Virus record (IMG/VR): IMGVR_UViG_3300037245_004337
Span: 1 to 40,838 of that record
Length of the DNA stretch: 40,838 nt
Strand: one strand, 5' to 3'
From: a virus
Made by a program: the position numbers and the translations under genes. The notes beneath the pieces are model-generated. The model saw nothing but the letters and a program-made list of their open reading frames with translations, had not been told where the DNA came from and ran no database searches. Below, one piece after another: positions 1,196 to 40,838 of this stretch. Numbering within the stretch: position 1 is the first letter of the stretch; the number at the start of each line of letters is the position of its first letter.

Positions 1196-1455
1196 AAACG
1201 CGATATAAATCCGGTGATTACAACGTAATTTCTGATCAAAGCGGTCAGAAATACAAGCGCAGTGAATGCCGTTTGGGTGTGCCAGGTTCGATCCAGGCTG
1301 GATTGCTGGTAGGCAAAGATGAATGGTCGCCTCGCCATCCCCAGTTGGATATCCGGCCACGTCCGGAGCATATAGCGGTAGAGCAGGGACGGCCGCGTCA
1401 AGAAACTCGGTGGGCCGATGGACAAGGCCCCAATGATCAGAAGATACCCTTCTAA
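1192..1455 (+). CDS. Conserved small phage protein, apparent zinc-ligand-less variant
   Basis: An 87-residue protein starting MKTRYKSGDYNVISDQSGQKYK and containing the hallmark DEWSPRHPQLDIRPRPE. I recall a common phage family with 'Y.sGdwnviCd.CG.k.k.se...W.gl.VC..dwEpRHPqd..R.rpd'. Here the expected CxxC reads SDQS and the later Cys reads VGKD, so the presumed metal site is lost while the surrounding frame remains. It is coupled to both neighbours (ATGA upstream, TAATG downstream) and sits directly before the gp4-like adaptor. Function unknown. The family assignment is from memory. Confidence 0.7.
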   Translation: MKTRYKSGDYNVISDQSGQKYKRSECRLGVPGSIQAGLLVGKDEWSPRHPQLDIRPRPEHIAVEQGRPRQETRWADGQGPNDQKIPF

Positions 1456-3857
1456 TGGCTGCTGTACTCGAATCTACCGCGAATGAAATCATTCTGGCAG
1501 CATTGCTGGATTCCGGCATTATTCGCCCTGATGAAATCCCTACATCTGAAGATACGGCGACTGCGCTTTCGCGCCTGAACACCATGACCAAGCGCTGGCA
1601 AGCCCAGGGGCATCATCTGTGGGCGCAGACAGAAGGTATTGCCTTTATGGACCAGGGCAAGGAATCGTATTTTCTAGGCCCTTCAGGTGATGAAGCTACA
1701 ACGGTGGATGACTTTATTGGCACTACCACCACGGCTGATCTAGCGGCTGATGCTGTCACGATCTCTGTTGACTCAACAGAGGGCATGCTCGGTGCGTCGG
1801 AACAAATCAGCATTGACCCTATCTCCACACAATTTTGGGCGGCGGGCAACGGCGGTATTCTTTCGGCTATTTCAGGAAATCTATCAGTGGCTAATGGCTC
1901 GGATGGAGCCAGTTTCGCCGACTTCACTTTGGACGTTGAAGTTGGTAAAACCTATCGCGTCACCGCCGTTTATTCAGGGGGCACATCCCCTAGCGTTATA
2001 GAGCCCGCCACGATTTTTGGGACTGGGGCAAATATTGAGGGCGGATTGGGTACTGGTAATACGGATTCAACCTTTGTTTTCACGGCGGCAGACACCACCG
2101 ATTTTGACTGGATTGCTGTCAGCGTGGGCGAAGAACATTCATGTGCTATTAACGCTGATGGGGAAATATTTAGCTCAGGTTTAAATTTTTCAGGCCAACT
2201 TGGCCTCGGCAATGAAATTGACAAGCTGTTTTTTACCCAGGAAAGCTCAGGTGCAACAAATTGGGATTCTATTTCAGCAGGCTTAAATTTTACGTCGGCG
2301 ATGGCAGGGGGAAAAATATTTGGCACAGGCTTAAACGAGGAGGGTGAGCTAGGTCTGGGAACTACCTCCAATGTGGATGTTTTCACGCAAGAAACACTCG
2401 GGGCTACCAATTGGACGGCAGCAGTTTCTGGCGAGACTCATCAAATCGCGTTGAACGCTAATGGGGAAATCTATACTGTTGGTGAGAATTTTTCAGGCCA
2501 ACTCGGCCAGGGCGGCACGTCGAATCTAAGTACTTTTACAAAAGTTGGAAGTGCTACGGATTGGGTGGCAATAGGAGCGGGTTTTGATACCTCGTTTGCC
2601 ATCAAGTCTGACGGGACATTACATGCGGCAGGCCTAAATGGCTCCGGCCAACTTGGCTTAGGCGATTTGACGGATAGGGACGTCTTCACGCAGGTCGGCA
2701 CAGATACAAATTGGGTCGCTGTTGAAGCAAGCGAATTTTCTGCTTACGCCCAAAAAGTTGATGGCAGTTGGTATGCTACTGGTCTCAATGTAAGAGGGCA
2801 ATTGGGCATTGGCTCAACAATCGATAAAGATGTATTCACCCTCGTCTTGGGCGGAAATGATTGGACTACTTTTTCAGCCGCGTCCTTTTCTGCCTTAGCC
2901 CTAAAATCGGATGGTAGTTTCTGGGGCGTGGGGTGGAATTTTGATGGCCAGCTCGGCCAGGGAGATAACGATGATAGATTCGAGACATTCATTTCGCTGT
3001 CGGATTCGATTGGCTGGTCAGCTATAGCAGAGGGGCTTAATGACAGTTTAGGAATTTTTTCAACGCCATCAACAAAACTATCCATTATCGATCCGGTCAC
3101 GGGGGAGGACTTACAGTCTGAGACAACGGATACTCTCGGCGATGTGGTGCTGGAATTTACCGCGACACAAACCGAGATGAGTTTTCGGTTATCTAACGTA
3201 CTTTCAGCAGCGACGGCATCAGTGGCCATCTCATCGCTGAATTTTATATGCCTCAGTGATGGTGATTTCATTGGCATCAAGCAAGACGACAATACGCGCC
3301 ATTGGACCACTATCGTAGAGGTCGTCGATGACACGACCTTAGAGATTGATACCGGCATGGTGTCAGCCGTCACCTCTGGCGCGCAAGTGTTTACGTTTAC
3401 CGATCTAATCGAACGCCCCATGCGAATTTATAATGAGCGCACAGAGACGATTGGTCAGAATAATGAAATTCCCTCGTATAAATGGTCGCGCCAGGAGTAC
3501 ATGCAGCAGACGATTAAGGATAGCCAGGGCACTGTTATCCAAATGTATTACAATCCCGAGTTAGGCAACGGTCGCTTGTATGTCTGGCAGACGGCAGCCG
3601 ATTGCAATCAGGTCGTCAATTTTACGTTTGATCGCCCCTTACAGGTTTCAGACGATCAATTAGACAGCCCCGATTTTCCCAGTGAATGGTTTGAGGCGTT
3701 GAAGTGGAATCTGGCGGTGCAGTTATTATCGGGCTATGCTGTTGATCAAAACACGGCGCAACTGGTGATGGCGAACGCACAAAGCTCGTTGGAAGAGGCG
3801 TTAGATTTTGATGAAGAAACAGGCTCACTTTATGTGCAGCCTAGATATGATAGATGA
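1455..3857 (+). CDS. P22 gp4-like head-to-tail adaptor with an inserted seven-repeat RCC1 beta-propeller
   Basis: The 800-residue protein is a mosaic. Residues 1-120 (LNTMTKRWQAQG, then VTISVDSTEG) and 603-800 (NTRHWTTIVEVVDD, RPMRIYN, SRQEYM, GRLYVWQT, FPSEWFEALKWNLAVQL) are the two halves of a gp4-type tail accessory factor, the ring that joins portal and tail. Usual homologues are about 160-220 residues. Between the halves lies a 480-residue insertion. Residues 187-538 are seven repeats of about 50 residues with the RCC1 signature (xGxNxxGQLGLG ... F ... W ... GxxHSxAI.xDG). They are flanked by beta-sandwich-like strands (about 121-186 and 539-600). The fold calls come from motifs. The insertion presumably projects from the tail ring and may bind a host surface. 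The start is ATG in a TAATG overlap. Confidence 0.85.
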   Translation: MAAVLESTANEIILAALLDSGIIRPDEIPTSEDTATALSRLNTMTKRWQAQGHHLWAQTEGIAFMDQGKESYFLGPSGDEATTVDDFIGTTTTADLAADAVTISVDSTEGMLGASEQISIDPISTQFWAAGNGGILSAISGNLSVANGSDGASFADFTLDVEVGKTYRVTAVYSGGTSPSVIEPATIFGTGANIEGGLGTGNTDSTFVFTAADTTDFDWIAVSVGEEHSCAINADGEIFSSGLNFSGQLGLGNEIDKLFFTQESSGATNWDSISAGLNFTSAMAGGKIFGTGLNEEGELGLGTTSNVDVFTQETLGATNWTAAVSGETHQIALNANGEIYTVGENFSGQLGQGGTSNLSTFTKVGSATDWVAIGAGFDTSFAIKSDGTLHAAGLNGSGQLGLGDLTDRDVFTQVGTDTNWVAVEASEFSAYAQKVDGSWYATGLNVRGQLGIGSTIDKDVFTLVLGGNDWTTFSAASFSALALKSDGSFWGVGWNFDGQLGQGDNDDRFETFISLSDSIGWSAIAEGLNDSLGIFSTPSTKLSIIDPVTGEDLQSETTDTLGDVVLEFTATQTEMSFRLSNVLSAATASVAISSLNFICLSDGDFIGIKQDDNTRHWTTIVEVVDDTTLEIDTGMVSAVTSGAQVFTFTDLIERPMRIYNERTETIGQNNEIPSYKWSRQEYMQQTIKDSQGTVIQMYYNPELGNGRLYVWQTAADCNQVVNFTFDRPLQVSDDQLDSPDFPSEWFEALKWNLAVQLLSGYAVDQNTAQLVMANAQSSLEEALDFDEETGSLYVQPRYDR

Positions 3858-9793: not shown

Positions 9794-10878
9794 TGGGCCG
9801 TTTTGTTAATGCTGCACCTCAATATATTGATACTGATGGAAGTCCTTTAAGCGGGGGTCAGTTGTTTTTTTATGTTACGGATACCTCTGGGCTAAATGAC
9901 ACCTATACGGATTCATCATTAGGCACCGCAAACTCAAATCCTGTTATTCTTGATACTTCAGGTACCATCCCTGATGTTTATTTAGACCCAGGGGTTATTT
10001 ATCGTGTGCAGATTCTGCGGGCAAACGGGACACTTTTTGACGATAAAAACGATATTGTCGGGCTCAATGATTCGGGCATTGATGTGCTAGGTGGCCTACC
10101 AGAGTGGAATAGTACTGTTAACTATACCATCCCTGATGTGGTCATTCGCAATTCATCGCTGTATGAGTCGATTTCAGCGGGCACGAATTTCGATCCTTTA
10201 ACAAATCCCTCCCATTGGTCACAATTTACTCATCTCAAAATATGGAATACCGCCGAAACTTATGCGTTGAACGACATTGTCCAGCAGGACGGAATTATTT
10301 ATCGCAGCCGAACAGGGACGAGTAATCAGGGGAAAAGCCCAGACGCCAATACGGATTTTTGGGCGAATACTTCGGGTATTGGTGAGCAAACAATTTATCT
10401 TCCGGCGCGTGCGATGGTGCCAACATTGTCTGATGGCGCACTTCAAGGAAGCTCAGCGACCCTAACGGGTATTACACTTTCGACACTCGATTTTGATCCA
10501 GATTTAAAAGAATTTGCGCAGTTTGATATTGAATTTCCTGATAGTTGGGACGGAGGCACTGTTGAGCTACATATCGACTGGTCAACCACTTCCTCAAGTA
10601 CCCTTAATGTTATTTGGGATTTTCAGACGACTTTTGTCACGGCTGATGCCTCTTTTGAGCAGACTTTTGGCGCGGTGTCTTCTGTAACTCAGGCCAACAT
10701 AGGCGCAAAAGTCAGGAATGAGTCAGCAGCCGTGTCTTTAACAACTAACGCAGCAGCAGGCGATCTCATATTTTTCCAAATTTCTCGGGATGCGGCGAAT
10801 GTTCTTGATACTTTACCTGCTGACGCTCGAATACATTCCGCTTTTATTAGATATAACACAGTGAGTTCAACAGACTAA
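9793..10878 (+). CDS. Tail fibre/spike with P22-tailspike-like head-binding domain and sugar-binding modules
   Basis: Residues 1-95 (FVNAAPQYIDTDGSPLSGGQ, TANSNPVILDTSG, DVYLDPGVIYRVQ) match the head-binding domain of P22 tailspike, which anchors the spike to the gp4/gp10 tail hub. Residues 103-145 and 149-190 are two repeats with the pattern W...TY...DIV...G..Y.S...N...P......W, as in type 3 chitin/carbohydrate-binding modules. Residues 200-361 form a beta-sandwich domain common in phage fibres (LDFDPDLKEFAQFDI, SWDGGTVE, GDLIFFQISRD). There is no beta-helix enzyme body, so it looks like an anchor that binds rather than cleaves. AGGAGG lies five bases upstream of the TAATG start. Confidence 0.8.
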   Translation: MGRFVNAAPQYIDTDGSPLSGGQLFFYVTDTSGLNDTYTDSSLGTANSNPVILDTSGTIPDVYLDPGVIYRVQILRANGTLFDDKNDIVGLNDSGIDVLGGLPEWNSTVNYTIPDVVIRNSSLYESISAGTNFDPLTNPSHWSQFTHLKIWNTAETYALNDIVQQDGIIYRSRTGTSNQGKSPDANTDFWANTSGIGEQTIYLPARAMVPTLSDGALQGSSATLTGITLSTLDFDPDLKEFAQFDIEFPDSWDGGTVELHIDWSTTSSSTLNVIWDFQTTFVTADASFEQTFGAVSSVTQANIGAKVRNESAAVSLTTNAAAGDLIFFQISRDAANVLDTLPADARIHSAFIRYNTVSSTD

Positions 10879-12002
10879 TGTTATCACTAACGAATTTAAT
10901 AGGGTTTGGAGCGGTCCAATTCCCCGTTAGCCCTCCTGGAGAATTATGGAGTACAGGAAATAATAGTTCCGGCCAATTAGGTTTGGGTGATGATATAGCT
11001 GAAGTTGTATTAACTCAAACTAGCCCCGTTGCAACATGGGAGGATGTTACTTGTGGACAAAGTTTTGCTATAGCCCTAATGAGTAACGCCACAATATGGA
11101 GCACTGGACATAATAATTCTGGTCAATTAGGCCAAGGTAATAGTGGTGCTGGTACCGATCTGGATGTTTTTACTAAAATCGGCTCAGCATCGGACTGGGC
11201 AAGCATTTCAGCCGGAACAGAACATGCGCTTGCTGTCACCACGGGGGGCACATTATGGAGCACCGGATTAAATGGAGATGGTCAATTAGGTCAGGGTAAT
11301 TTCGGTACCGATGCAGATACTTTTACCCTAGTCACCGGTTCTACGATCTGGGAAAGTGTTGCAGCTGGGGGTGCCTTTTCTTTAGCCATAAGAACGAATG
11401 GCACATTATGGAGTTGTGGAGATAATGATAACGGCCAATTGGGTCAGGGGGATTTTGATGACATAAACACTTTTGCCCAAGTCGGAAGTGCTACGGATTG
11501 GGATAAAATTGCGGCTGGCAATGAGCATTCTTTAGCGATAAACGACGACGGTGAATTATTTGCTTGCGGGGATAATAATTCTGGTGAGTTGGGACTGGGG
11601 CCAGGGGTGCTTGATCAAAATAGTTTTGTCCAGGTGGGCGTTGAGACTGATTGGGCTGATGTAGCTGCTGGCCTCTTTTTTTCTTTAGCCCTAAAATCGA
11701 CAGGCACATTATGGGCTTGTGGATTAAATAGTAGCGGGCAATTAGGTCTGGGTGATGCAACTTCCCGAAATGTCTTTACCCAAGTTGGCGAAGAAACAAA
11801 TTGGGCAAAGATTTCAGCAGGCACATTTTTTTCTTTAGCCATAAAAGAGGACGGCACATTATGGGCCACCGGAAGTAATGGTTCTGGCCAATTAGGTTTG
11901 GGTGAGAAAGGGAGTCAGGTTTCGTTTACGAATGTAGAGAGTAGAAATACCTGGGACGTTATTGCCGCAGGCGCAGATTTTACCCAGGCTATATCACTAT
12001 GA
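10878..12002 (+). CDS. Free-standing seven-repeat RCC1 beta-propeller protein
   Basis: After about 22 N-terminal residues (MLSLTNLIGFGAV), residues 23-374 are seven near-regular repeats of about 50 residues. Each starts LWSTGxNxSGQLGLG, carries F(T/A)QVG and a conserved W, and ends AAGxxFSLAIxxDGT. Seven such units give a complete RCC1-type propeller. RCC1 is best known as a eukaryotic Ran exchange factor, but bacterial and phage members act mainly as binding surfaces; no nucleotide-exchange role is implied. The gene is coupled to the head-binding fibre upstream (TAATG) and the gp10-like gene downstream (ATGA), so the product is probably on the tail tip. It may bind the receptor or block co-infection; both ideas are inference. 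Confidence 0.85.
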   Translation: MLSLTNLIGFGAVQFPVSPPGELWSTGNNSSGQLGLGDDIAEVVLTQTSPVATWEDVTCGQSFAIALMSNATIWSTGHNNSGQLGQGNSGAGTDLDVFTKIGSASDWASISAGTEHALAVTTGGTLWSTGLNGDGQLGQGNFGTDADTFTLVTGSTIWESVAAGGAFSLAIRTNGTLWSCGDNDNGQLGQGDFDDINTFAQVGSATDWDKIAAGNEHSLAINDDGELFACGDNNSGELGLGPGVLDQNSFVQVGVETDWADVAAGLFFSLALKSTGTLWACGLNSSGQLGLGDATSRNVFTQVGEETNWAKISAGTFFSLAIKEDGTLWATGSNGSGQLGLGEKGSQVSFTNVESRNTWDVIAAGADFTQAISL

Positions 12003-13689: not shown

Positions 13690-14138
13690 TGTTCCACGTT
13701 CAACATTTTATCGTAACCCTTTGATTTGGTATAATATATTGTTTTCCTGGCACACTTATATTTCTTAGCCAAAAGTGGAGCAGACAAATTTGAGAGCTGT
13801 ATTTCTCTTTTTTGCATGGAGGATAAATGCTTAAATGTCTTTGCTGTTCGTCCTTTTTTAGCCATGTCTAGCATGTTCTCTGCATGGGTTCCTAGAAATA
13901 GGTGATCCGGGTTCACGCAACCGGGGTTGTCGCAGGTATGACAGACACATAATCCCTCTGGAATAGGGTCCTTATAAAGTTCATAAGCCTTTCGGTTGGC
14001 GCGCCCCATATAGTGACCATTCCATATTTGACCATAGCCATCTGACCCTGTAGCACCAATCCACCACCAGCATGCAGTTTCAGGAATGGTAATCCATTTT
14101 TTATCAAACCGTTCTATATATTCTTTAGTAGAAATCAT
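13686..14138 (-). CDS. HNH endonuclease (free-standing, homing-type) with C-terminal HTH
   Basis: From ATG 14138 (in an ATGA overlap) the protein is 150 residues. It has W24-W26 and RANRKAYELY upstream of the nuclease core CHTCDNPGCVNPDHLFLGTHAENM. C66, C69 and C74 form a zinc knuckle, and H67, N76 and H79/H85 are the HNH catalytic and metal residues. The last 50 residues (QLSNLSAPLLAKKYKCARKTIYYT) read as a helix-turn-helix that would give DNA specificity. It is the last gene of the minus operon and converges on the late region with overlapping stops. It may be a selfish homing enzyme or may aid packaging. Confidence 0.88.
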   Translation of the reverse strand: MISTKEYIERFDKKWITIPETACWWWIGATGSDGYGQIWNGHYMGRANRKAYELYKDPIPEGLCVCHTCDNPGCVNPDHLFLGTHAENMLDMAKKGRTAKTFKHLSSMQKREIQLSNLSAPLLAKKYKCARKTIYYTKSKGYDKMLNVEH

Positions 14139-14554
14139 TTTATTTCCAGCCACCTAACCGCGCCATCCTTTTGGAGTGTAAGAATCAATCCTTCTAAAAA
14201 GTTTTTCTTGGCTTCTTCGATCGTCATGCCACAACCGGCGTAATCTATCTCTATCGCCTGTGCAAAATACCCGTCGCCATCTTTTTCTATCGATACATTA
14301 AGCGTTCCGAAAAAAGGCTTGTTAGGGCGTTTTCCGAGATCCGCGCAATCCGCCAGGTATTCATCAACCGCTTCTATGAACGCATCTTTTAGAGCTCCCA
14401 AGGTGTCAGCCTCGTAACTAATCATGTCTCTGATAAACAGTATTTTCCCGTGAAGGACGCCGTCTACGACGGAGGCTTCTATTGATCCGCGATAGTTTGC
14501 GTGGCTCATCATGCCAAACGTGTGGCTCTCCCGAATTTCATTATCGTTCTTCAT
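14135..14554 (-). CDS. HicB-like protein with two tandem HicB-type folds, no toxin partner
   Basis: Starts at ATG 14554 inside the stop of the upstream gene. Residues about 20-90 (YRGSIEASVVDGVLHGKILFI, ADTLGALKDAFIEAVDEYLADC, KRPNKPFFGTLNV) match the HicB antitoxin N-terminal fold. Residues 90-139 (SIEKDGDGYFAQAIEIDYAGCG, TIEEAKKNFLEGL) look like a second, differently related HicB fold. The ribbon-helix-helix DNA-binding tail usual in HicB is absent, and no HicA-like gene is adjacent. It could neutralise a host HicA toxin, giving the phage an anti-defence or anti-abortive-infection role, but that is inference. Confidence 0.7.
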   Translation of the reverse strand: MKNDNEIRESHTFGMMSHANYRGSIEASVVDGVLHGKILFIRDMISYEADTLGALKDAFIEAVDEYLADCADLGKRPNKPFFGTLNVSIEKDGDGYFAQAIEIDYAGCGMTIEEAKKNFLEGLILTLQKDGAVRWLEIK

Positions 14555-15225
14555 GAGTCTATCTTCCCACAAGGATTGCCCTGTGAATCTTTCATGGTGC
14601 CATTGGGGGTCATCTCAGGAATGTTGGTAAGCACGGGGTCTCTCAAGTCGCCACCATTGTCCATGCTGCCTGTTAATTTGACATAAAGCCGACACCCTGG
14701 GGTTACATAGTACGTTCTGTGCTTTGTGTTCCCCATTTTTATGTGAAGCCTATAGGCTGCAGGGGCGGGCACCACAAAATCCACAGCGTCATTGCCGACC
14801 ATCTTGTAGTCGGTTTTTTGATCTGTGCTGGTTGAGATAGGAGGAGCGTCTGGGCCTACACCCTCCTCGGTACCCCCTGTGGCGTAGTTTATAGGATAGC
14901 CCGCCGGTTGTGAGTCTTCATCCAAGCCAGTCAGCTCTGATGTAACCTTAAGGTCTGTTCCATCTTCTACGGTGAAGTGGAGAATTCCGCATTTACTTGG
15001 GTGATTTATGCAATATGGATCAACTGTGTAGAGTCCATTGTCTGGTGTAGGCGCATCCCCGCCATAGGGGTAGATGTAATCAGACTCTCCATCGTCGTCA
15101 CTGCCTAACTGTCCACTGCCATAAATATCAATTAAAAAGCCAATAGCCATACCACCAGCCACACCAATAGTAGCGCAAAAAGCCACTCTTCTTGCGAAGT
15201 CCAGTATCGTTTTACGTTTAATCAT
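14551..15225 (-). CDS. Membrane-anchored hypothetical protein (224 aa)
   Basis: ATG 15225 has GGAGAA eight bases upstream. Residues 1-10 are basic (MIKRKTILDF), and residues 12-36 form one hydrophobic segment (RVAFCATIGVAGGMAIGFLI). A long polar, Asp/Gly/Pro-rich part with four or five cysteines follows, so the likely topology is one anchor with an outside domain. There is no lipobox or enzyme motif. It is coupled to the HicB-like gene (ATGA). I do not recognise the family. The position next to the lipoprotein and the 29-residue membrane peptide suggests envelope work, such as lysis or superinfection control. Confidence 0.65.
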   Translation of the reverse strand: MIKRKTILDFARRVAFCATIGVAGGMAIGFLIDIYGSGQLGSDDDGESDYIYPYGGDAPTPDNGLYTVDPYCINHPSKCGILHFTVEDGTDLKVTSELTGLDEDSQPAGYPINYATGGTEEGVGPDAPPISTSTDQKTDYKMVGNDAVDFVVPAPAAYRLHIKMGNTKHRTYYVTPGCRLYVKLTGSMDNGGDLRDPVLTNIPEMTPNGTMKDSQGNPCGKIDS

Positions 15226-15688: not shown

Positions 15689-16621
15689 CTATTTCCCGCG
15701 CATATCCAGTATCGGTGTGGCACCAGACCCACCCAGCATGGTGACCGGTAATTTGCCGTCCCACTGCTGCGCTTCGGTGAGCTCAACCAATAATGGATTA
15801 TTTTTAAGCGCACCGCCCTTCGCTTTAATCGCGGTGGCTTCAGCCTGACCCTTCACCTGGATAGCTTCAGCTTCTGCCTTGGCCGCCTCTCGCACTGCAT
15901 AGGCCTTACCATCAGCTTTGGCCTTAGTGGCATCCCGCGTCGCCTTGGCGGTGTTTACGGCCTGCTCTGCAGTCAGTGCCTGACGGGCCAGTTTGTGCTC
16001 TTCAGCCGCAGCCAGGTTCTTTTCTGTCTGCTTGATTTCAATTGAGGTCAGGTACTTTGCGGGCAGATTAATATTCTCAATCTGAACACTATCAATGGTC
16101 ACTGGGAACTCAGTCATTTCTTCAATGAACAGTTCCTCGATGGCGGTAATGGCTGAAGCACGATCGCGGATTAGCTGCTCCGCCGTGTAATGCGGGATGA
16201 CTGATTTTGTCGCAGACCTAAACCGTGGGTCTAGTATGCGCTGCTCAAACTGCGTGAGGCCGCCGTACTTTTTGTAAAGGTCTAGCGCGGCTGTTTTGTC
16301 CACTGTCCAGTTTGCTGAGACTTCTACTGTCACCGGCATCTGTTCGCTGGTGGATGACGCCATTTTCTCTACGTTTTTACGCGTGCGTATTTCCAGTGGC
16401 TCCACGACTTCTATGAACGGCACCTTAAAGTGCAGTCCAGGAATCACCTGTTCAATCGCTTCACTGAATCGCTTCTTTATACCGATATGGCCTTCTTCAA
16501 CGGTGTAGATTGCGCCGTTTAAAAGCACTACGACTAAAAGAAAAAGAAATAAATCGATAACAATTCTTTTAATGTTGGGTTCTTGCGCACCTGATTCGCG
16601 TGTTTCTATATATCTTTTCAT
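15689..16621 (-). CDS. SPFH/band 7 (prohibitin/HflK-HflC-like) membrane protein
   Basis: Of 310 residues, 19-39 form one membrane segment (IVIDLFLFLLVVVLLNGAIY). An SPFH domain follows at about 40-205 (EEGHIGIKKRFSEAIEQVIPGLHFKVPFIE, QMPVTVEVSANW, FRSATKSVIPHYTAEQLIRDR). Residues 205-280 are an Ala/Glu/Lys-rich helix (EEHKLARQALTAEQAV, AVREAAKAEAEAIQVKG), as in stomatin, prohibitin and HflK. Such proteins form large membrane rings and modulate proteases such as FtsH. Phage-encoded members are known, but their role is not settled; candidates are superinfection exclusion or protecting early proteins from FtsH. Its leader is nearly identical to that of the 112-residue membrane gene. Confidence 0.9.
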   Translation of the reverse strand: MKRYIETRESGAQEPNIKRIVIDLFLFLLVVVLLNGAIYTVEEGHIGIKKRFSEAIEQVIPGLHFKVPFIEVVEPLEIRTRKNVEKMASSTSEQMPVTVEVSANWTVDKTAALDLYKKYGGLTQFEQRILDPRFRSATKSVIPHYTAEQLIRDRASAITAIEELFIEEMTEFPVTIDSVQIENINLPAKYLTSIEIKQTEKNLAAAEEHKLARQALTAEQAVNTAKATRDATKAKADGKAYAVREAAKAEAEAIQVKGQAEATAIKAKGGALKNNPLLVELTEAQQWDGKLPVTMLGGSGATPILDMRGK

Positions 16622-20660: not shown

Positions 20661-20852
20661 ATGCAGTTATTAAAAGATTATATCGCTGAAACGCGTGAAA
20701 CAACGCTTGAAGTCGCGCAAAGGTTTAATGTCTCGCGCACCGTCATATACAACTGGATAGAAAAGGGAGCCTTTATTTCTGGCGAAGAAGGTGACCAAAA
20801 GATAACGATTAACCGTCAGGCCGCAAAGGAGCGTTCAGATGATGACCTTTGA
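20661..20852 (+). CDS. Small HTH DNA-binding protein (Cro/excisionase-like, 63 aa)
   Basis: First gene of the rightward operon, with a strong AAGGAGA ribosome site. Residues 14-39 (TTLEVAQRFNVSRTVIYNWIEKGAFI) form a helix-turn-helix. The rest is short and charged (GDQKITINRQAAKERSDDDL). Size and place right after the rightward promoter fit a Cro-like regulator acting on the dyad at 20564-20600. Without an integrase in the genome an excisionase role is unlikely. The ORF overlaps the RusA gene by 14 bases. Confidence 0.8.
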   Translation: MQLLKDYIAETRETTLEVAQRFNVSRTVIYNWIEKGAFISGEEGDQKITINRQAAKERSDDDL

Positions 20853-21213: not shown

Positions 21214-21658
21214 TGGCTTAATCAGGCACCCCCGCGACGACTTTTTAAACATTGTAAACAATCTTAAGAAAGCACGGCGGGTGAAGACTGATAGTTATAC
21301 CGCGTGTTGTCCCGCTCATGATGATAACAGCCCGTCATTATCGATCGACCTGAAGAATGGTGATCAGATTTTATTTCACTGCCATTCTGGCTGTACTCAA
21401 TATGAAGTGATGATGGCCCTGGAATCGATGGGATTGTGGCAACCGAAGAAAAAAGAGCGGTATTTTTCGAGAAATACCCGCCGTCATTCAAAAGATGAGC
21501 TCGAATATTATTGTTATTTTATCGCTATTTACCAAGCTGATAAAAAAGCTGGCCGCTCGGTCAGTGCCAAAGATGAAACCATTTATCAAGACGCTCTGAT
21601 CATTTTGCGCTCGGAGCATCCCAAATTTCCTTTCCTGCCGGAGAATTCCCATGAATGA
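21197..21658 (+). CDS. Primase-type zinc-finger (CHC2-like) protein
   Basis: I start it at ATG 21197, which overlaps the RusA end. The product of 153 residues has ACCPAHDDNSPSLSI and, after a short beta hairpin, ILFHCHSGCTQYEVMMAL. The ligands C38, H41, C62 and C66 form the CHC2 zinc ribbon that reads template DNA in DnaG-type primases. There is no Toprim domain: the C-terminal half is only helical. The next gene is a RecA-fold helicase, so primase and helicase functions are split over two overlapping genes, with either the catalytic part divergent or the host primase recruited. Confidence 0.8.
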   Translation: MTLNNNGLIRHPRDDFLNIVNNLKKARRVKTDSYTACCPAHDDNSPSLSIDLKNGDQILFHCHSGCTQYEVMMALESMGLWQPKKKERYFSRNTRRHSKDELEYYCYFIAIYQADKKAGRSVSAKDETIYQDALIILRSEHPKFPFLPENSHE

Positions 21659-22880
21659 TAATGCCCCCCCTGATACAGGCCCGCTTGATTATATCGATAG
21701 TCCTCAACATGAAGCCGAGATGAAAGTGCGGCGCGAGGAACAGAAATTAGAGGATATTAGGGCGAATAGACGCCCCGCTTTTGATAGTTTTGCCTGGGAT
21801 CAGGCATTTACAGACAAGAGTCTGCCGCCAAAGAAGTTGGTGCAGGGTTTATTGCTTTACCGCGACGTGTCATTGGTGGCGGCCCAACCTAATGTGGGCA
21901 AGTCAGCGTTAGCGGTTGATCTGGGGCTCTGTATAGCGGCGGGGGTGCCCTGGCATGGCCGAGAGGTTGATCAGCGATCGGTCTTATATGTAGCGGCTGA
22001 ATCGCCTGAATCGATTAAATTGCGCATGATGGCGGCGTATCACAGCCATAGTGAATTTAAGGGCCTGGAGGGATTGCCTTTCTATACAACGCAGGAAGAT
22101 GTTTGTTTGATGGGTCTATTGGGGATGCCGACTTTCAAAATGAAGATAGAGGCTTGGCAGCGTGCTCATCCCGACCTGGGACTGGTGGTGGTTGATACGC
22201 TTCGCTCGGCGTGTCCTGGCTTGCAAGAAAATGATGCGAACGGTGTGTCACCAATCATGCAGGGGCTGAATGAACTGGCGAGGTCTTTGAATATACACAT
22301 TATGTTGGTGCATCACACGACCAAGTCGGGCGAAGATTACTCAGGATCGGGCGTTATAGGCGCGATCGTGGATGCGATTATCTTTGTGCGCAATGAACTT
22401 GAAGAGCGGGGCTGTATTGTGGCCAAGGTCGACAAGCAACGACAGCTTCCTTGCGACAAAAAAGAGGAGTTCTTCTATATCATTGAGAGTGCCGAGACAG
22501 GCCGTGGAGAGGATAACTTTGGGGATGTAGAGACGGCAGCCATGGTACGACAACTCACCCTGGAAGAGCTTGAGGAGATCGCCACTGAGGCTAAAAAGCA
22601 TGCGAATGAAAGTTCTGTCATTGAAGGGAAGGCGTTCACGGAAAGTTCGAAGACAACGATGATGAACAAACTGGTTATCTTTTTGCAGATGAAGGGAGGC
22701 GCAGGGCATTTAAAGCAGGACATTTTAGATTTTCCAGCGCAGATCGGCGTAGAAGCTTCGGCGCACAGTAGGCTGATGATTAAGAGTGTTGTCAAAGAAA
22801 GCTGCAAGAAAGGGGGTGCGGTTATGGAGCACGGTAAAGGTGAAGACATCATATTGAAAGTAAAAATACACTCAGTTTAA
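21651..22880 (+). CDS. RepA/AAA_25-type replicative helicase (RecA-fold ATPase)
   Basis: The 409-residue protein has Walker A at 78-85 (AQPNVGKS) and Walker B at 178-182 (LVVVD). A RepA-type block LNIHIMLVHHTTKSGEDYSGSGVI serves as sensor, and an N-terminal extension of 60 residues precedes the core. This fits the hexameric RepA/AAA_25 helicase group used by plasmids and phages. The C-terminal 100 residues may be a winged helix (KLVIFLQMKGGAGHLKQD). It overlaps the primase-like gene by eight bases, so the two probably act together at the origin, which may lie in the repeat-rich region downstream. Confidence 0.85.
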   Translation: MNDNAPPDTGPLDYIDSPQHEAEMKVRREEQKLEDIRANRRPAFDSFAWDQAFTDKSLPPKKLVQGLLLYRDVSLVAAQPNVGKSALAVDLGLCIAAGVPWHGREVDQRSVLYVAAESPESIKLRMMAAYHSHSEFKGLEGLPFYTTQEDVCLMGLLGMPTFKMKIEAWQRAHPDLGLVVVDTLRSACPGLQENDANGVSPIMQGLNELARSLNIHIMLVHHTTKSGEDYSGSGVIGAIVDAIIFVRNELEERGCIVAKVDKQRQLPCDKKEEFFYIIESAETGRGEDNFGDVETAAMVRQLTLEELEEIATEAKKHANESSVIEGKAFTESSKTTMMNKLVIFLQMKGGAGHLKQDILDFPAQIGVEASAHSRLMIKSVVKESCKKGGAVMEHGKGEDIILKVKIHSV

Positions 22881-23184: not shown

Positions 23185-23409
23185 GTGGCGACACCATCTG
23201 AACCTTTAGAAACCACCTGCCCTAGCGGCACTATTGCGACTGTGTCTTCTGCTGAAATCCGTGCTGCTGGCAGAGCTCTTGCGGAATGTATTGGTGATAG
23301 CTTTATTGCGGCTGGTTTTAAGAAGGATAGGTCAACCGGTATTCCGGTACACCCTGATGAACTAATAGGTCTGCGCGTATACGCGTATACCGGTATTCCG
23401 GTGGACTAA
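23185..23409 (+). CDS. Possible small protein (74 aa) with TGIPV repeats
   Basis: I choose GTG 23185, with GGAGG nine bases upstream; other starts are TTG 23161 and GTG 23179. The product (MATPSEPLETTC) has a helical middle (SAEIRAAGRALAECIGDSFIAAG) and two TGIPV copies, each encoded by the palindrome-like ACCGGTATTCCGGT. No family is recognised. A normal amino-acid mix supports a real gene, but the palindromes hint that the DNA element may be what is selected, so the coding status is uncertain. It would be the only gene between helicase and late promoter. Confidence 0.45.
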   Translation: MATPSEPLETTCPSGTIATVSSAEIRAAGRALAECIGDSFIAAGFKKDRSTGIPVHPDELIGLRVYAYTGIPVD

Positions 23410-23505: not shown

Positions 23506-23548
23506 AGCGCACTGGCCGGTCTCTGCATATATTCAGGGACTTGTGACA

Positions 23549-23619
23549 TGGTTAAAATAGTGCAGAAAATCGACACGTTTTATGAACGTGGTTAAAATTC
23601 CAGGATATATCGACACGTT
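23549..23619 (+). repeat. Two 31-base direct repeats, 40-base period
   Basis: Both copies (23549-23579 and 23589-23619) read TGGTTAAAAT, ten variable bases, then ATCGACACGTT. The conserved flanks with a free centre look like paired protein-binding half-sites, such as iterons or terminase/pac recognition boxes. Confidence 0.75.
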
Positions 23620-23839
23620 GCCGCGTCGGGCTGTGTCGGGGAAAAGGGCATAATCAGCCATATGCCGGTGCAGAAACGTAGTCCAAAAAATACAATTCCG
23701 TTACTTATCAATGGCTTGGGAACAGAGGTGCTGGCCCAAAACAGTGGCGGGTAGGCACTGGCGCTGAAACACCCCTTTTTGCCTATCAAAAGCGATTAAA
23801 GCACTGTATATAAAGGGTTTAGGGGTGGCGCTAAGGCTG

Positions 23840-23848
23840 TGGTATAAT
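23840..23848 (+). promoter_or_regulatory. Late promoter with extended -10 (TGGTATAAT)
   Basis: A perfect TATAAT at 23843-23848 is preceded by TG at 23840-23841, an extended -10 that can work with a poor -35 (only TTTAGG/TAGGGG is present near 23818-23825). The predicted transcript starts near 23855 and meets two hairpins within 70 bases, then the packaging genes. Confidence 0.7.
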
Positions 23849-23861
23849 TAAGCCCTTACTG

Positions 23862-23891
23862 AGAGCGTCTGTTCCCTCCTCGCTCTTTTTT
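23862..23891 (+). terminator. Rho-independent terminator 1 in the late leader
   Basis: AGAGCG (23862-23867) pairs with CGCTCT (23881-23886) across a 13-base loop. The last T of the stem belongs to the T-run through 23891. It starts only a few bases after the expected transcription start. Confidence 0.6.
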
Positions 23892-23903
23892 AAGGTCTCG
23901 CCT

Positions 23904-23925
23904 GGCAGCTAACGCTGCCTTTTTT
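23904..23925 (+). terminator. Rho-independent terminator 2 in the late leader
   Basis: GGCAGC, loop TAAC, GCTGCC, then six T. This is a strong classic terminator about 50-70 bases after the promoter, so unmodified polymerase should stop here and make a short RNA. Late genes begin at 24098 (or at the peptide gene 23954). Confidence 0.85.
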
Positions 23926-23953
23926 AATTCCCCCCAATAAGATCGACCCAATC

Positions 23954-24037
23954 ATGGATGAAAATCTAGTGCTGATCCTATTCGCGATCACTATTGCGGC
24001 TGTGATCAACCACCATCTCTTTACCGCTTTTATATAA
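23954..24037 (+). CDS. Possible 27-residue membrane peptide
   Basis: An open frame from ATG 23954 to TAA 24037 codes for an acidic head (MDEN) and one hydrophobic stretch (LVLILFAITIAAVI), then NHHLFTAFI. It lies right after the late terminators and before the first clear late gene. The ribosome site is poor, so coding is uncertain. If real, it would be the first late product and could be holin-like. Confidence 0.3.
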   Translation: MDENLVLILFAITIAAVINHHLFTAFI

Positions 24038-24097: not shown

Positions 24098-24301
24098 ATG
24101 ACTGATAAAGCCAAAAACTTAATTCAGTACCTCTCGGGGACGATTGTCGACAAGAGCCCAGGGAAAGATAAGGCTATCATTACGATCGATATCAAATCCT
24201 TTAACACCAGCTCAGAGCAGTGGCAGCACATCTATAGCGAGTTAAAAGGCGATAAGATAAAACTCTCCCTGAAAACATCAGCCACAAAGGCTGAAGCATG
24301 A
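24098..24301 (+). CDS. First clear late gene, small hypothetical protein (67 aa)
   Basis: ATG 24098; the product starts MTDKAKNLIQYLSGTIVDKSPGK and has a beta-strand/helix alternation (KAIITIDIKSFNTSSEQW, KLSLKTSATKAEA). No family is recognised. Its last four bases overlap the next ATG (ATGA). The ribosome site is weak, which could indicate translation coupled to the leader. It belongs to a group of three small genes between the late promoter and the terminase genes. Such positions often hold packaging helpers or DNA-binding proteins, but nothing in the sequence tells. Confidence 0.6.
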   Translation: MTDKAKNLIQYLSGTIVDKSPGKDKAIITIDIKSFNTSSEQWQHIYSELKGDKIKLSLKTSATKAEA

Positions 24302-25557: not shown

Positions 25558-27183
25558 TTGGATACCATTTACAACGCTGCACCCACCGCCGTCAAAATGC
25601 ATGCGTCGAAAAAAGTCGTGCGTGGTTACCTGGGGCCAGTGGGCAATGGCAAGAGTGTTTGTTGCATCATGGACGCGTTCAGTATTTGCCTGGATCAATG
25701 GCCTAATAGTGAGGGCGTCCGCAAGTCGCGGTTTGTGCTTGTCCGCAACACCGGCCCCGAATTACGCACCACCACCCTAAAGACTTTCCAACAGTGGATA
25801 CCCCCCAGGATATGTCACATAGCGCTTAACCCTGTGATCCAGGGAACAATGCGCCAAGACTTGGGCGATGGCACGTCGATAGAAATGGAAGTGATCTTTC
25901 TATCTATTGATCGACCCCAGGATGTGAAGAAATTATTAGGCATTGAATCCACGGTGATCTTTCTCAATGAAGCGCGAGAGATGCCATACGCTACCGTTCG
26001 AGCCGCGAGAGAGCGCATAGGCCGCTATCCCAATCGGGCGTCAGGGTATGAAGATGTCTATGATGACTCTGGAAATCTTATTTATGATGCACCCAAAGAG
26101 CGAGACGAAGACGGGCAAATAATCTATGGCAAGAACGGCGATCCTATCTATACGCCGTGTAAACGCAAAGCCATACTGATGGACACTAACCCACCTGACA
26201 CCGATCACTGGTGGTATCAACTGGCGGAAGAGGGCTGCTTTCGAAAAAGCAAAAACAAAGATTTTGACACCAAAGAGACAGAACGTATCTTTGGTTTCTT
26301 TCGGGGTACACCCCCTTTGATAGAGAAAGACGGCATCTATATTGAAAATCCCGACGCGGAAAACATCGAAAACTTACCTGGTGGTTATCAATACTATCTA
26401 GATATGATTGCTGGCAACACACCGGACTATATCAGCGTCATGGTATTGGGTAACTACGGCACCATCATGGAAGGCAAGCCGGTCTATCCACAATACAACG
26501 ATCGATTTCACTGCCCCGAAAAAGCGGTGGGTGCTATACCTGGCATTCCTATTTGTCTGGGTTGGGACTTTGGCCTAACGCCCGCTTGTGTCATTGGTCA
26601 ATTAACCGATATAGGCCAGTGCAGAATCATCTGGGAACTAGTGAGTGACGACATGAGCGCGGCTCAGTTTGCTCGTGATGTGGTCAAGCCATTCTTGCAG
26701 CAGTATTTTGACGGGTGGACGATAGGCTTTTCTTTCGGTGATCCTGCGGGCAATAACCGAGGAGAAGGTGAAGGTAAGTCCGCCATTGGCATCTTGAATG
26801 ATGCTTACGTTATGGACGGTGACACCCCCTTGGACATGGGCTTTACGACTGAGCCTGCCCCGACCAATGACATCACACGTCGAGTGAATGCCGTGCAAAG
26901 CTTTATGAGCAAGATGTGTGGTGCCGGTGAGCCTGGCTATCTGCTCAGTAACAAATGCAAAGAGCTGCGCAAAGGTAAGCTGGGTGGCTATCACTACAAA
27001 ACTATTGGCACGATCGGCAGTGAGTTAACCAAAACTACACCACACAAAAACATGGCATCGCACTCAGCTGATGCCGAACAATACTTATGCCTAGGCTTTC
27101 AGGGTGGCTACGTTGTAGACGTGGCCCATGATGAAGAAGAGAACTATCAGCCTCGGCATGTTAAAAAGACAGGAACAATGTGA
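25558..27183 (+). CDS. terL: Terminase large subunit (packaging ATPase/nuclease)
   Basis: The 541-residue protein has Walker A GPVGNGKS at residues 26-33 and Walker B TVIFLNEA around 132-139 with E138. Coupling motif DTNPPDT comes next. The nuclease domain begins at CLGWDFGLTPACVIGQL (first metal Asp). The final acidic residue of the nuclease site is in HSADAEQYLCLG near the C-terminus. It drives DNA into the head and cuts it. The start is TTG 25558 (GGGGG upstream), right after the small gene's stop. Odd: a low-complexity insertion (about 163-198, GNLIYD, DGQIIYG, GDPIY) sits between Walker B and the coupling motif. Confidence 0.93.
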   Translation: MDTIYNAAPTAVKMHASKKVVRGYLGPVGNGKSVCCIMDAFSICLDQWPNSEGVRKSRFVLVRNTGPELRTTTLKTFQQWIPPRICHIALNPVIQGTMRQDLGDGTSIEMEVIFLSIDRPQDVKKLLGIESTVIFLNEAREMPYATVRAARERIGRYPNRASGYEDVYDDSGNLIYDAPKERDEDGQIIYGKNGDPIYTPCKRKAILMDTNPPDTDHWWYQLAEEGCFRKSKNKDFDTKETERIFGFFRGTPPLIEKDGIYIENPDAENIENLPGGYQYYLDMIAGNTPDYISVMVLGNYGTIMEGKPVYPQYNDRFHCPEKAVGAIPGIPICLGWDFGLTPACVIGQLTDIGQCRIIWELVSDDMSAAQFARDVVKPFLQQYFDGWTIGFSFGDPAGNNRGEGEGKSAIGILNDAYVMDGDTPLDMGFTTEPAPTNDITRRVNAVQSFMSKMCGAGEPGYLLSNKCKELRKGKLGGYHYKTIGTIGSELTKTTPHKNMASHSADAEQYLCLGFQGGYVVDVAHDEEENYQPRHVKKTGTM

Positions 27184-29537: not shown

Positions 29538-29808
29538 TGTCTGGAAAAATTTACGGGTTACGCAGCAGTTCTTTTTAGAGTTGGCTGAAATGTATTATGA
29601 CAATGTAACGCGTGAGCCGGTGGTGATTGCGCATGCACAAATCGCTACGCAAAACAAAGCCGGAGACCCTGTCCTGTTTGCACATACCAATCCGGTAGAG
29701 GAAACCGCAATCAATTCCGCTTTAAAGGCGGGGCGCGTACAGGTGATGGAAGTGCTGATGGAATATAAGCCGTCCAATCTAGAAGAGGAAAAAGCGAATG
29801 ACGATTAA
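29452..29808 (+). CDS. Conserved small head-gene protein overlapping the portal gene (118 aa)
   Basis: ATG 29452 with GGAG nine bases upstream; the first 86 bases lie inside the portal gene in another frame. The protein (MQTLKALQSEVQKQVRKSQVEQISKEEFNVWKN) opens with a coiled-coil and continues with a helical Gln/Glu-rich body, ending EYKPSNLEEEKANDD. It has no catalytic or membrane motif. The place between portal and co-chaperonin fits a head-assembly or portal-associated protein; no specific name can be given. Overlaps the next gene by 11 bases. Confidence 0.7.
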   Translation: MQTLKALQSEVQKQVRKSQVEQISKEEFNVWKNLRVTQQFFLELAEMYYDNVTREPVVIAHAQIATQNKAGDPVLFAHTNPVEETAINSALKAGRVQVMEVLMEYKPSNLEEEKANDD

Positions 29809-30148
29809 GCCGACGGGATTTTATGTTTTGGTCGAGCTCGCGTCTGTTGACCAGGAAGTCAAAGAGGGGCCGTTAAAAGGCATGGTGTTGACCAGTAATG
29901 CCGAGCATAACCGCGAGCAAACGGGTCATGACTGTGCCCTCGTCTTGGCTATTGGTCCTACTGCGCATTTGGGGTATGACGGCATTGATGGTGCGTCGCC
30001 CGAAGAACGTGCACAGCAGTGGGGTTATAACGTCGGCGACACCGTGCAAATGGACCGTTATCAGGGCACTGAAATTAAAGTGCCTGGTTATGAAAACCAA
30101 CGATTGGTGCTTGATTGTTCAATCAAAGGTGTTTATCTGGAGGATTAA
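29798..30148 (+). CDS. GroES-like (Cpn10) co-chaperonin
   Basis: The 116-residue protein follows the Cpn10 layout: KPTGFYVLVELASV (first strand), a mobile loop with KGMVLTSN in the position of GroES GGIVLTG, so MVL replaces the GroEL-binding IVL. Then come CALVLAIGPT, an extra 20-residue loop, VGDTVQMDRYQGTEIKV and the final strand IKGVYLED. Phage co-chaperonins such as T4 gp31 replace host GroES to fold their capsid protein. Its place between portal and scaffold genes, shortly before the major capsid gene, fits that role. The fold is called by motif only. Confidence 0.8.
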   Translation: MTIKPTGFYVLVELASVDQEVKEGPLKGMVLTSNAEHNREQTGHDCALVLAIGPTAHLGYDGIDGASPEERAQQWGYNVGDTVQMDRYQGTEIKVPGYENQRLVLDCSIKGVYLED

Positions 30149-33150: not shown

Positions 33151-33157
33151 ATGACAG

Positions 33158-33177
33158 GCCCCACAAGGGGCTTTTTT
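33158..33177 (+). terminator. Rho-independent terminator after the major capsid gene
   Basis: GCCCC, loop ACAA, GGGGC, then six T, directly after the capsid stop. It would reduce transcription into the following fibre genes, so capsid is made in excess over fibres. Confidence 0.88.
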
Positions 33178-33216
33178 CCTAACGCCCTTCGGGGCGTATA
33201 GCCAATACGTTAGGAG
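33178..33216 (+). promoter_or_regulatory. UUCG-capped hairpin and possible ribosome-site mask
   Basis: CGCCC-TTCG-GGGCG (33183-33196) is a tetraloop hairpin of very stable type. In addition CCTAACG (33178-33184) is the exact complement of CGTTAGG (33208-33214), which overlaps the AGGAG ribosome site of the GTG-started gene at 33223. Read-through transcripts could thus fold into a form that hides that site. Confidence 0.6.
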
Positions 33217-33222
33217 ATAACA

Positions 33223-40685: not shown

Positions 40686-40838
40686 ATGGCCATTGCCACT
40701 ACATTATCTCAACCTGGAATCTCAATAGAAGGGATCGTCGGGGGTACCATTGAGCCTGAGAAGTTCGCTCTTTTTGCTGATGCTTCTGGCACAGCCAATT
40801 TTATAAATACTGTTAACACCGCAAGCCTACAGATAGTC
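40686..40838 (+). CDS. Start of the lectin-like structural gene (continues at base 2)
   Basis: ATG 40686 directly follows the previous stop (TAA 40683-40685). The frame MAIATTLSQPGISIEGIVGG runs into the terminal overlap, and its continuation is bases 2-697, giving a 240-residue product in total. See the entry at 2-697 for the rest. Confidence 0.85.
   Translation, partial: MAIATTLSQPGISIEGIVGGTIEPEKFALFADASGTANFINTVNTASLQIV
40712..40838. repeat. Terminal direct repeat, right copy (circle overlap)
   Basis: Identical to bases 1-127. One copy should be removed when the circle (40,711 bp) is written out. Confidence 0.95.

Follow-up and report, generated by a model that had tools for sequence, protein, structure and literature searches.

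The window analysed here is the whole virus record, 40,838 nucleotides in length. Because its first and last 127 bases (1-127 and 40712-40838) are identical, the record most probably represents a closed circular genome of ~40.7 kb, the alternative explanation of the identical ends being short direct terminal repeats. The early genes read leftward extend from 20494 to 13686. Those read rightward begin at 20661 with a small helix-turn-helix (HTH) protein; next come a RusA resolvase and two further proteins, one primase-like and one of primase/helicase type. The two longest gaps of the genome (304 and 688 bases) lie 3' of the helicase gene, which ends at 22880, and flank a single 74-residue open reading frame (ORF). 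The second of these gaps contains a promoter-like sequence followed by two putative terminators, beyond which the late genes (terminase, portal, capsid and tail) run rightward from 24098 round to 13689, a total of ~30 kb. The features on which the analysis rests are as follows.

20661..20852, + strand: Cro-like HTH protein of 63 residues, first gene of the rightward early operon
21651..22880, + strand: primase/helicase-type gene, beyond which the early rightward operon has no recognisable gene
23185..23409, + strand: 74-residue orphan ORF with a GTG start and a strong Shine-Dalgarno sequence, lying where Q lies in lambda
23840..23848, + strand: extended -10, TGG TATAAT (TGGTATAAT), assigned from its sequence, its scores, and the class and position of relatives' promoters
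23861..23891, + strand: predicted terminator 1 (7-bp stem, 13-nt loop, T6), expected RNA ~36 nt
23904..23925, + strand: predicted terminator 2 (6-bp stem, 4-nt loop, T6), expected RNA ~71 nt
24098..24301, + strand: first clear late ORF (67 aa), 3' of both terminators
25558..27183, + strand: terminase large subunit, anchor of all comparisons

Elsewhere in the genome, two late proteins, encoded at 1455-3857 and 10878-12002, match PHROG families that bear the name regulator of chromosome condensation (RCC1-like repeats), which is unusual for a virion region, and a GroES-like protein (29798-30148, + strand) is encoded among the head genes. On the - strand, 15689-16621 encodes a phage lipoprotein family protein that reads like the SPFH/HflC type, and 14135-14572 a HicB-like antitoxin without an evident HicA.

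Probable promoter and terminators preceding the late genes

A sequence-only reading of this region had described a perfect TATAAT with an extended TG, two hairpins with T-runs close behind it and a late region of some 30 kb thereafter, all of which we find in place. From the position of the -10, a start site is expected near 23855; no -35 hexamer is present. Hairpin 1 (23861-23887) pairs GAGAGCG with CGCTCTT (23861-23867 with 23881-23887), has its T6 at 23886-23891 and a folding energy of -8.1 kcal/mol, while hairpin 2 (GGCAGC-TAAC-GCTGCC, 23904-23919) has its T6 at 23920-23925 and a folding energy of -11.3 kcal/mol. Both have the form of an intrinsic terminator, a GC-rich hairpin passing directly into a U-run. 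Using a strict definition (stem of at least 6, at least 4 GC pairs, T6), four terminators were observed on both strands of the genome against 0.33 expected per dinucleotide-shuffled genome, and none of 400 such shuffles contained two strict terminators within 60 nt, or one at most 90 nt after TGNTATAAT, compared with the one pair observed. The terminator pair is thus beyond chance. Transcripts are predicted to end at both sites, of which terminator 1 is modest given its energy and 13-nt loop, and both could be leaky. The boxA-like CGCTCTT of terminator 1 (23881-23887) belongs to the hairpin arm, and an N-like gene is not known. When viral contigs were searched for exact copies of TGGTATAATNNNGCCCTTAC, the single match was antisense within a coding gene of an unrelated contig and was set aside as chance.

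A compact promoter-hairpin-hairpin unit might also be a small-RNA gene, producing a stable RNA of 36-71 nt whose regulatory role would be separate from the late genes. The 73-nt transcript does fold better than shuffles (z -3.3), but this score is accounted for by the terminator hairpins, the leader has no Rfam match even at a relaxed threshold, and a search for homologues of its sequence returned none; we therefore consider such a gene unlikely. A DNA-level search of phages with the promoter-terminator region likewise gave no match.

Taken alone, the -10 is unremarkable: a dinucleotide-shuffled genome is expected to contain 1.5 copies of TGNTATAAT, and this genome has two. By a general promoter score, whose matrix frequencies are approximate, the 23840 site ranks only 36th in the genome because it has no -35, and other promoter-like sites, at 22876, 22921 and 23593, roughly match or exceed the score of that at 23843. 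A position matrix built from nine relatives' promoters does not rank the window site first, and the sites behind this matrix have little in common beyond TGNTATAAT. The promoter is probably real, since an extended -10 of the same class, likewise without a -35, is found in close relatives, several of which have it at a like distance from the terminase gene; it is presumed to be active. The best promoter-like site in the interval from terminator 2 to the first late ORF scores 6.8 versus 9.1 for the 23843 site, and since only this weak site is available there, late transcription most likely must pass the terminators.

Several other sequence features surround the unit. At 23546-23621, 250 bp before it, two copies of a GTGGTTAAAAT / TCGACACGTT block lie ~40 bp apart, together with a promoter-like TCGACA-N17-TAAAAT (-10 at 23593) and an inverted CACGTT/AACGTG, and this block looks like a tandem operator. 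Two copies of ACCGGTATTCCGGT are found further upstream, at 23335 and 23389, and a perfect GGCGGACGCGTCCGCC palindrome just behind the 74-residue ORF lies next to a 15-nt inverted repeat (23392-23406/23491-23505). Downstream of terminator 2 and ahead of the first clear late gene, 23954-24037 holds a 27-residue ORF encoding a hydrophobic, possibly membrane-spanning peptide; its codon usage looks coding, and it has a 16-mer (94%) in common with 23229-23244.

Arrangement of the late promoter in related phages

With the terminase gene as query, matches were obtained in 35 viral contigs (mostly 55-73% identity), in named phages and in genome contigs, among them those of Vibrio, Gallibacterium, Arsukibacterium and Colwellia; a search with the capsid gene yielded 80 loci. 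Neither for the second late protein (24298) nor for the helicase did a search recover any relative. Close relatives have a perfect extended -10 without a -35 ahead of their late genes. In the close relatives L016, L017, L019, L027, L035 and L105, a perfect TGNTATAAT lacking a -35 lies 0.7-3.1 kb before the terminase gene and adjoins a terminator; in L016, L017 and L027 the distance is -1.64 to -1.73 kb, compared with ~-1.72 kb in the window, and the promoters of the window and L035 are identical over 16 nt (TGTGGTATAATTAAGC). The order of elements differs, the terminator standing just before the promoter (T-P) in these six relatives, whereas in the window the promoter precedes two terminators (P-T-T). 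Among 76 terminase-anchored contigs of uneven upstream length, terminators after TGNTATAAT were found in the window only, and because no close relative has this P-T-T arrangement, its conservation cannot be shown. A conserved intergenic block in L016 (985-1110) and L017 (4110-4240), which persists despite differing upstream genes, consists of TGCTATGAT, a terminator and then TGATATAAT, and is possibly a promoter-terminator-promoter unit; a similar order occurs in L023 (3120-3260). The promoter-terminator in the late operon of L104 was not counted, its promoter lying inside an ORF.

These relatives bear directly on an explanation without a dedicated antiterminator, in which the two terminators would simply insulate, closing the early rightward operon (Cro-like protein, RusA, primase, helicase and 74-aa ORF), and the late genes would be transcribed through leakage or from a weak promoter past terminator 2, such as the TAAGAT at 23938. 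Close relatives commonly have a terminator between the early genes and a late promoter 3' of it, and transcripts from the promoter-like sites at 22876, 22921 and 23593 would run into the same two terminators; the window furthermore shows neither a Q gene nor a pause element. However, the window's equivalent of the relatives' late promoter is upstream of the terminators rather than downstream, and the site following terminator 2 is much weaker than its counterparts in several T-P relatives, which score 11-13. We regard insulation as quite possible, but not as the favoured explanation.

The same P-T(-T) order as in the window does occur in four distant relatives (terminase identity 31-36%), namely Pasteurella phage Pmp11 and the Gallibacterium, Arsukibacterium and Vibrio litoralis prophages, in which a promoter is followed by one or two terminators. 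The interval from the start of the -10 to the first T-run is 43 nt in the window and 42-46 nt in three of the four (Pmp11, Vibrio litoralis and Gallibacterium), being 60 in the fourth. All four carry a lambdaQ-like phrog_127 gene, which in Gallibacterium lies ~5 kb upstream of the late leader and is not adjacent to it. The order is therefore known to go with antitermination, and the proposal of the sequence-only reading that the layout is of the pR'-tR' type is borne out by these Q-bearing relatives. Unlike the window, three of the four leaders have a clear TTGAC -35 and three have a pause-like element, in addition to the phrog_127 gene, which is absent from the window, from eleven close viral records (several of them fragments), and from BcepC6B and BPP-1.

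Comparison with Q-type and other antitermination systems

In lambda, as in the window, a promoter (pR') directly after the replication genes is followed by intrinsic terminator(s) (tR') and then by all late genes, with Q (lambdaQ, 21Q and 82Q classes) as the antiterminator. The window differs in lacking a Q gene, a -35 and a -10-like pause element, and its leader, at 36-71 nt, is very short and holds two terminators. In agreement with the original remark that no Q-like gene is recognisable, none of the Q families PF03589, PF06530 and phrog_127 was found in six frames of the complete genome, nor was a CxxCxGxG-type zinc-finger protein found in the window.

As controls, phrog_127 loci (Vibrio litoralis family) and PF06530 loci (Gallibacterium family) were combined to give 57 distinct Q loci, 23 of which have a promoter with a terminator downstream by the scan used. 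Their -10 to T-run distances are mostly 80-90 nt (PF06530), or 42-45 nt in two phrog_127 podophages, compared with 43 and 77 in the window. A hexamer resembling a pause element, defined by A at position 2, T at position 6 and at least 3/6 matches and lying shortly after the start, is present in 20 of these 23 control promoters versus 48% of random sequence, and nearly all of them have a -35; the initial transcribed region of the window has no -10-like pause element. The window therefore has the order of a Q switch, in which intrinsic terminator(s) separate the promoter from the late genes, and lacks the defining marks. Of the lambda-Q type control that had been suggested, the layout stands and control by antitermination is plausible, but with no Q family, pause element or -35 this reading is only partly supported. 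A true Q-type switch would call for an unrecognised Q that loads at a sigma-dependent pause on a Q-binding element. Such a protein could be missed, since the Q families have no significant sequence similarity to each other (PMC9371919), and a new, dissimilar Q may be encoded in the window. Q binding sites are specific to each Q. The order and spacing shared with the Q-bearing relatives favour this possibility, while the absence of a pause-like hexamer, of a nearly universal -35 and of any protein matching Q families makes it unlikely.

Phage Q families do not exhaust this kind of regulator, as illustrated by AlpA of Pseudomonas aeruginosa (PMC7969949, PMC9371919). AlpA resembles the proposed arrangement in that promoters are followed by terminators starting at +26 or +54 and one small protein gives read-through; it requires a GGGACG element between -35 and -10 plus a CACGAT pause element at -1 to +5 (PMC7969949, PMC9371919). 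Both an AlpA-type GGGACG N5 GGTA and a CACGAT-like pause element are absent from 23820-23860. In phage Xp10, the small phage protein P7 lets the host polymerase pass intrinsic terminators before the late genes (PMC6624301). No P7 homologue was detected in the window, where the 74-residue ORF was the protein compared, and the likeness is one of function only.

Candidate read-through factors

The HTH protein at 20661 had been put forward as a possible antitermination factor, which we think unlikely. It occupies the position of Cro, and its AlphaFold model (pLDDT 78 from single sequence) has the topology of lambda Cro at moderate confidence; its best PDB matches are likewise lambda Cro, though weak (E ~0.4, TM ~0.56), and it has no sequence match to Cro. 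Its HTH is near the N terminus, while Q and AlpA have theirs at the C terminus (PMC9371919).

The 74-residue ORF, another of the factors suggested earlier, looks truly coding, with a codon score above 99% of non-coding null controls. It has no relatives and no confident fold (low-confidence model), and comparison of its sequence with solved chains gave no relevant match, although for an ORF this short and orphan a distant relation to P7 is possible. We consider it a possible read-through factor.

A strong terminator and a second large hairpin lie directly 3' of the major capsid gene (33155-33220), and several relatives are alike in this respect. As a sign of antitermination this terminator was rejected, because relatives without the P-T layout also have a terminator there.

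Proposed control of the late genes

The explanation that we tentatively favour, at a probability of about 0.4, is that the unit comprises a late promoter and two terminators, and that the late genes are expressed by read-through dependent on an antiterminator protein of a non-Q kind. The host RNA polymerase would start at the late promoter at 23840-23848, transcripts would end at either intrinsic terminator to give RNAs of ~36 and ~71 nt, and the late genes would be expressed only from polymerase reading through. Late in infection, read-through would be brought about by a small polymerase-modifying phage protein outside the known Q families, one probably not loaded at a sigma-dependent pause and with its closest kind of precedent in Xp10 P7. 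If such a factor exists, P7 would be a better model than Q because the cis marks of Q are missing. Read-through caused by a phage factor is preferred, with the same tentativeness, over leakage combined with insulation. In its favour are the terminator pair beyond chance, the promoter class and position common to close relatives, the weakness of the site past terminator 2, the lambdaQ-like genes of relatives with the P-T(-T) order and the precedent of P7. Against it count that the only well-placed candidate factor, the 74-aa ORF, is an orphan and has no confident fold, that close relatives lack the P-T-T order, and that both terminators could be leaky. The more specific proposition, that a new non-Q antiterminator such as this orphan drives polymerase past both terminators from a promoter with neither a -35 nor a sigma pause element, is rather doubtful.

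Known antiterminators resemble each other in sequence little or not at all, which makes it difficult to detect new ones by homology. In a complete phage genome that lacks a recognised Q, a leader of the P-T-T type leads to a short candidate list. Were the favoured explanation true, it would add an antiterminator independent of a sigma-dependent pause; were it false, the terminators would be an ordinary insulator, and related phages would still have been shown to differ in how late promoter and terminator are ordered.
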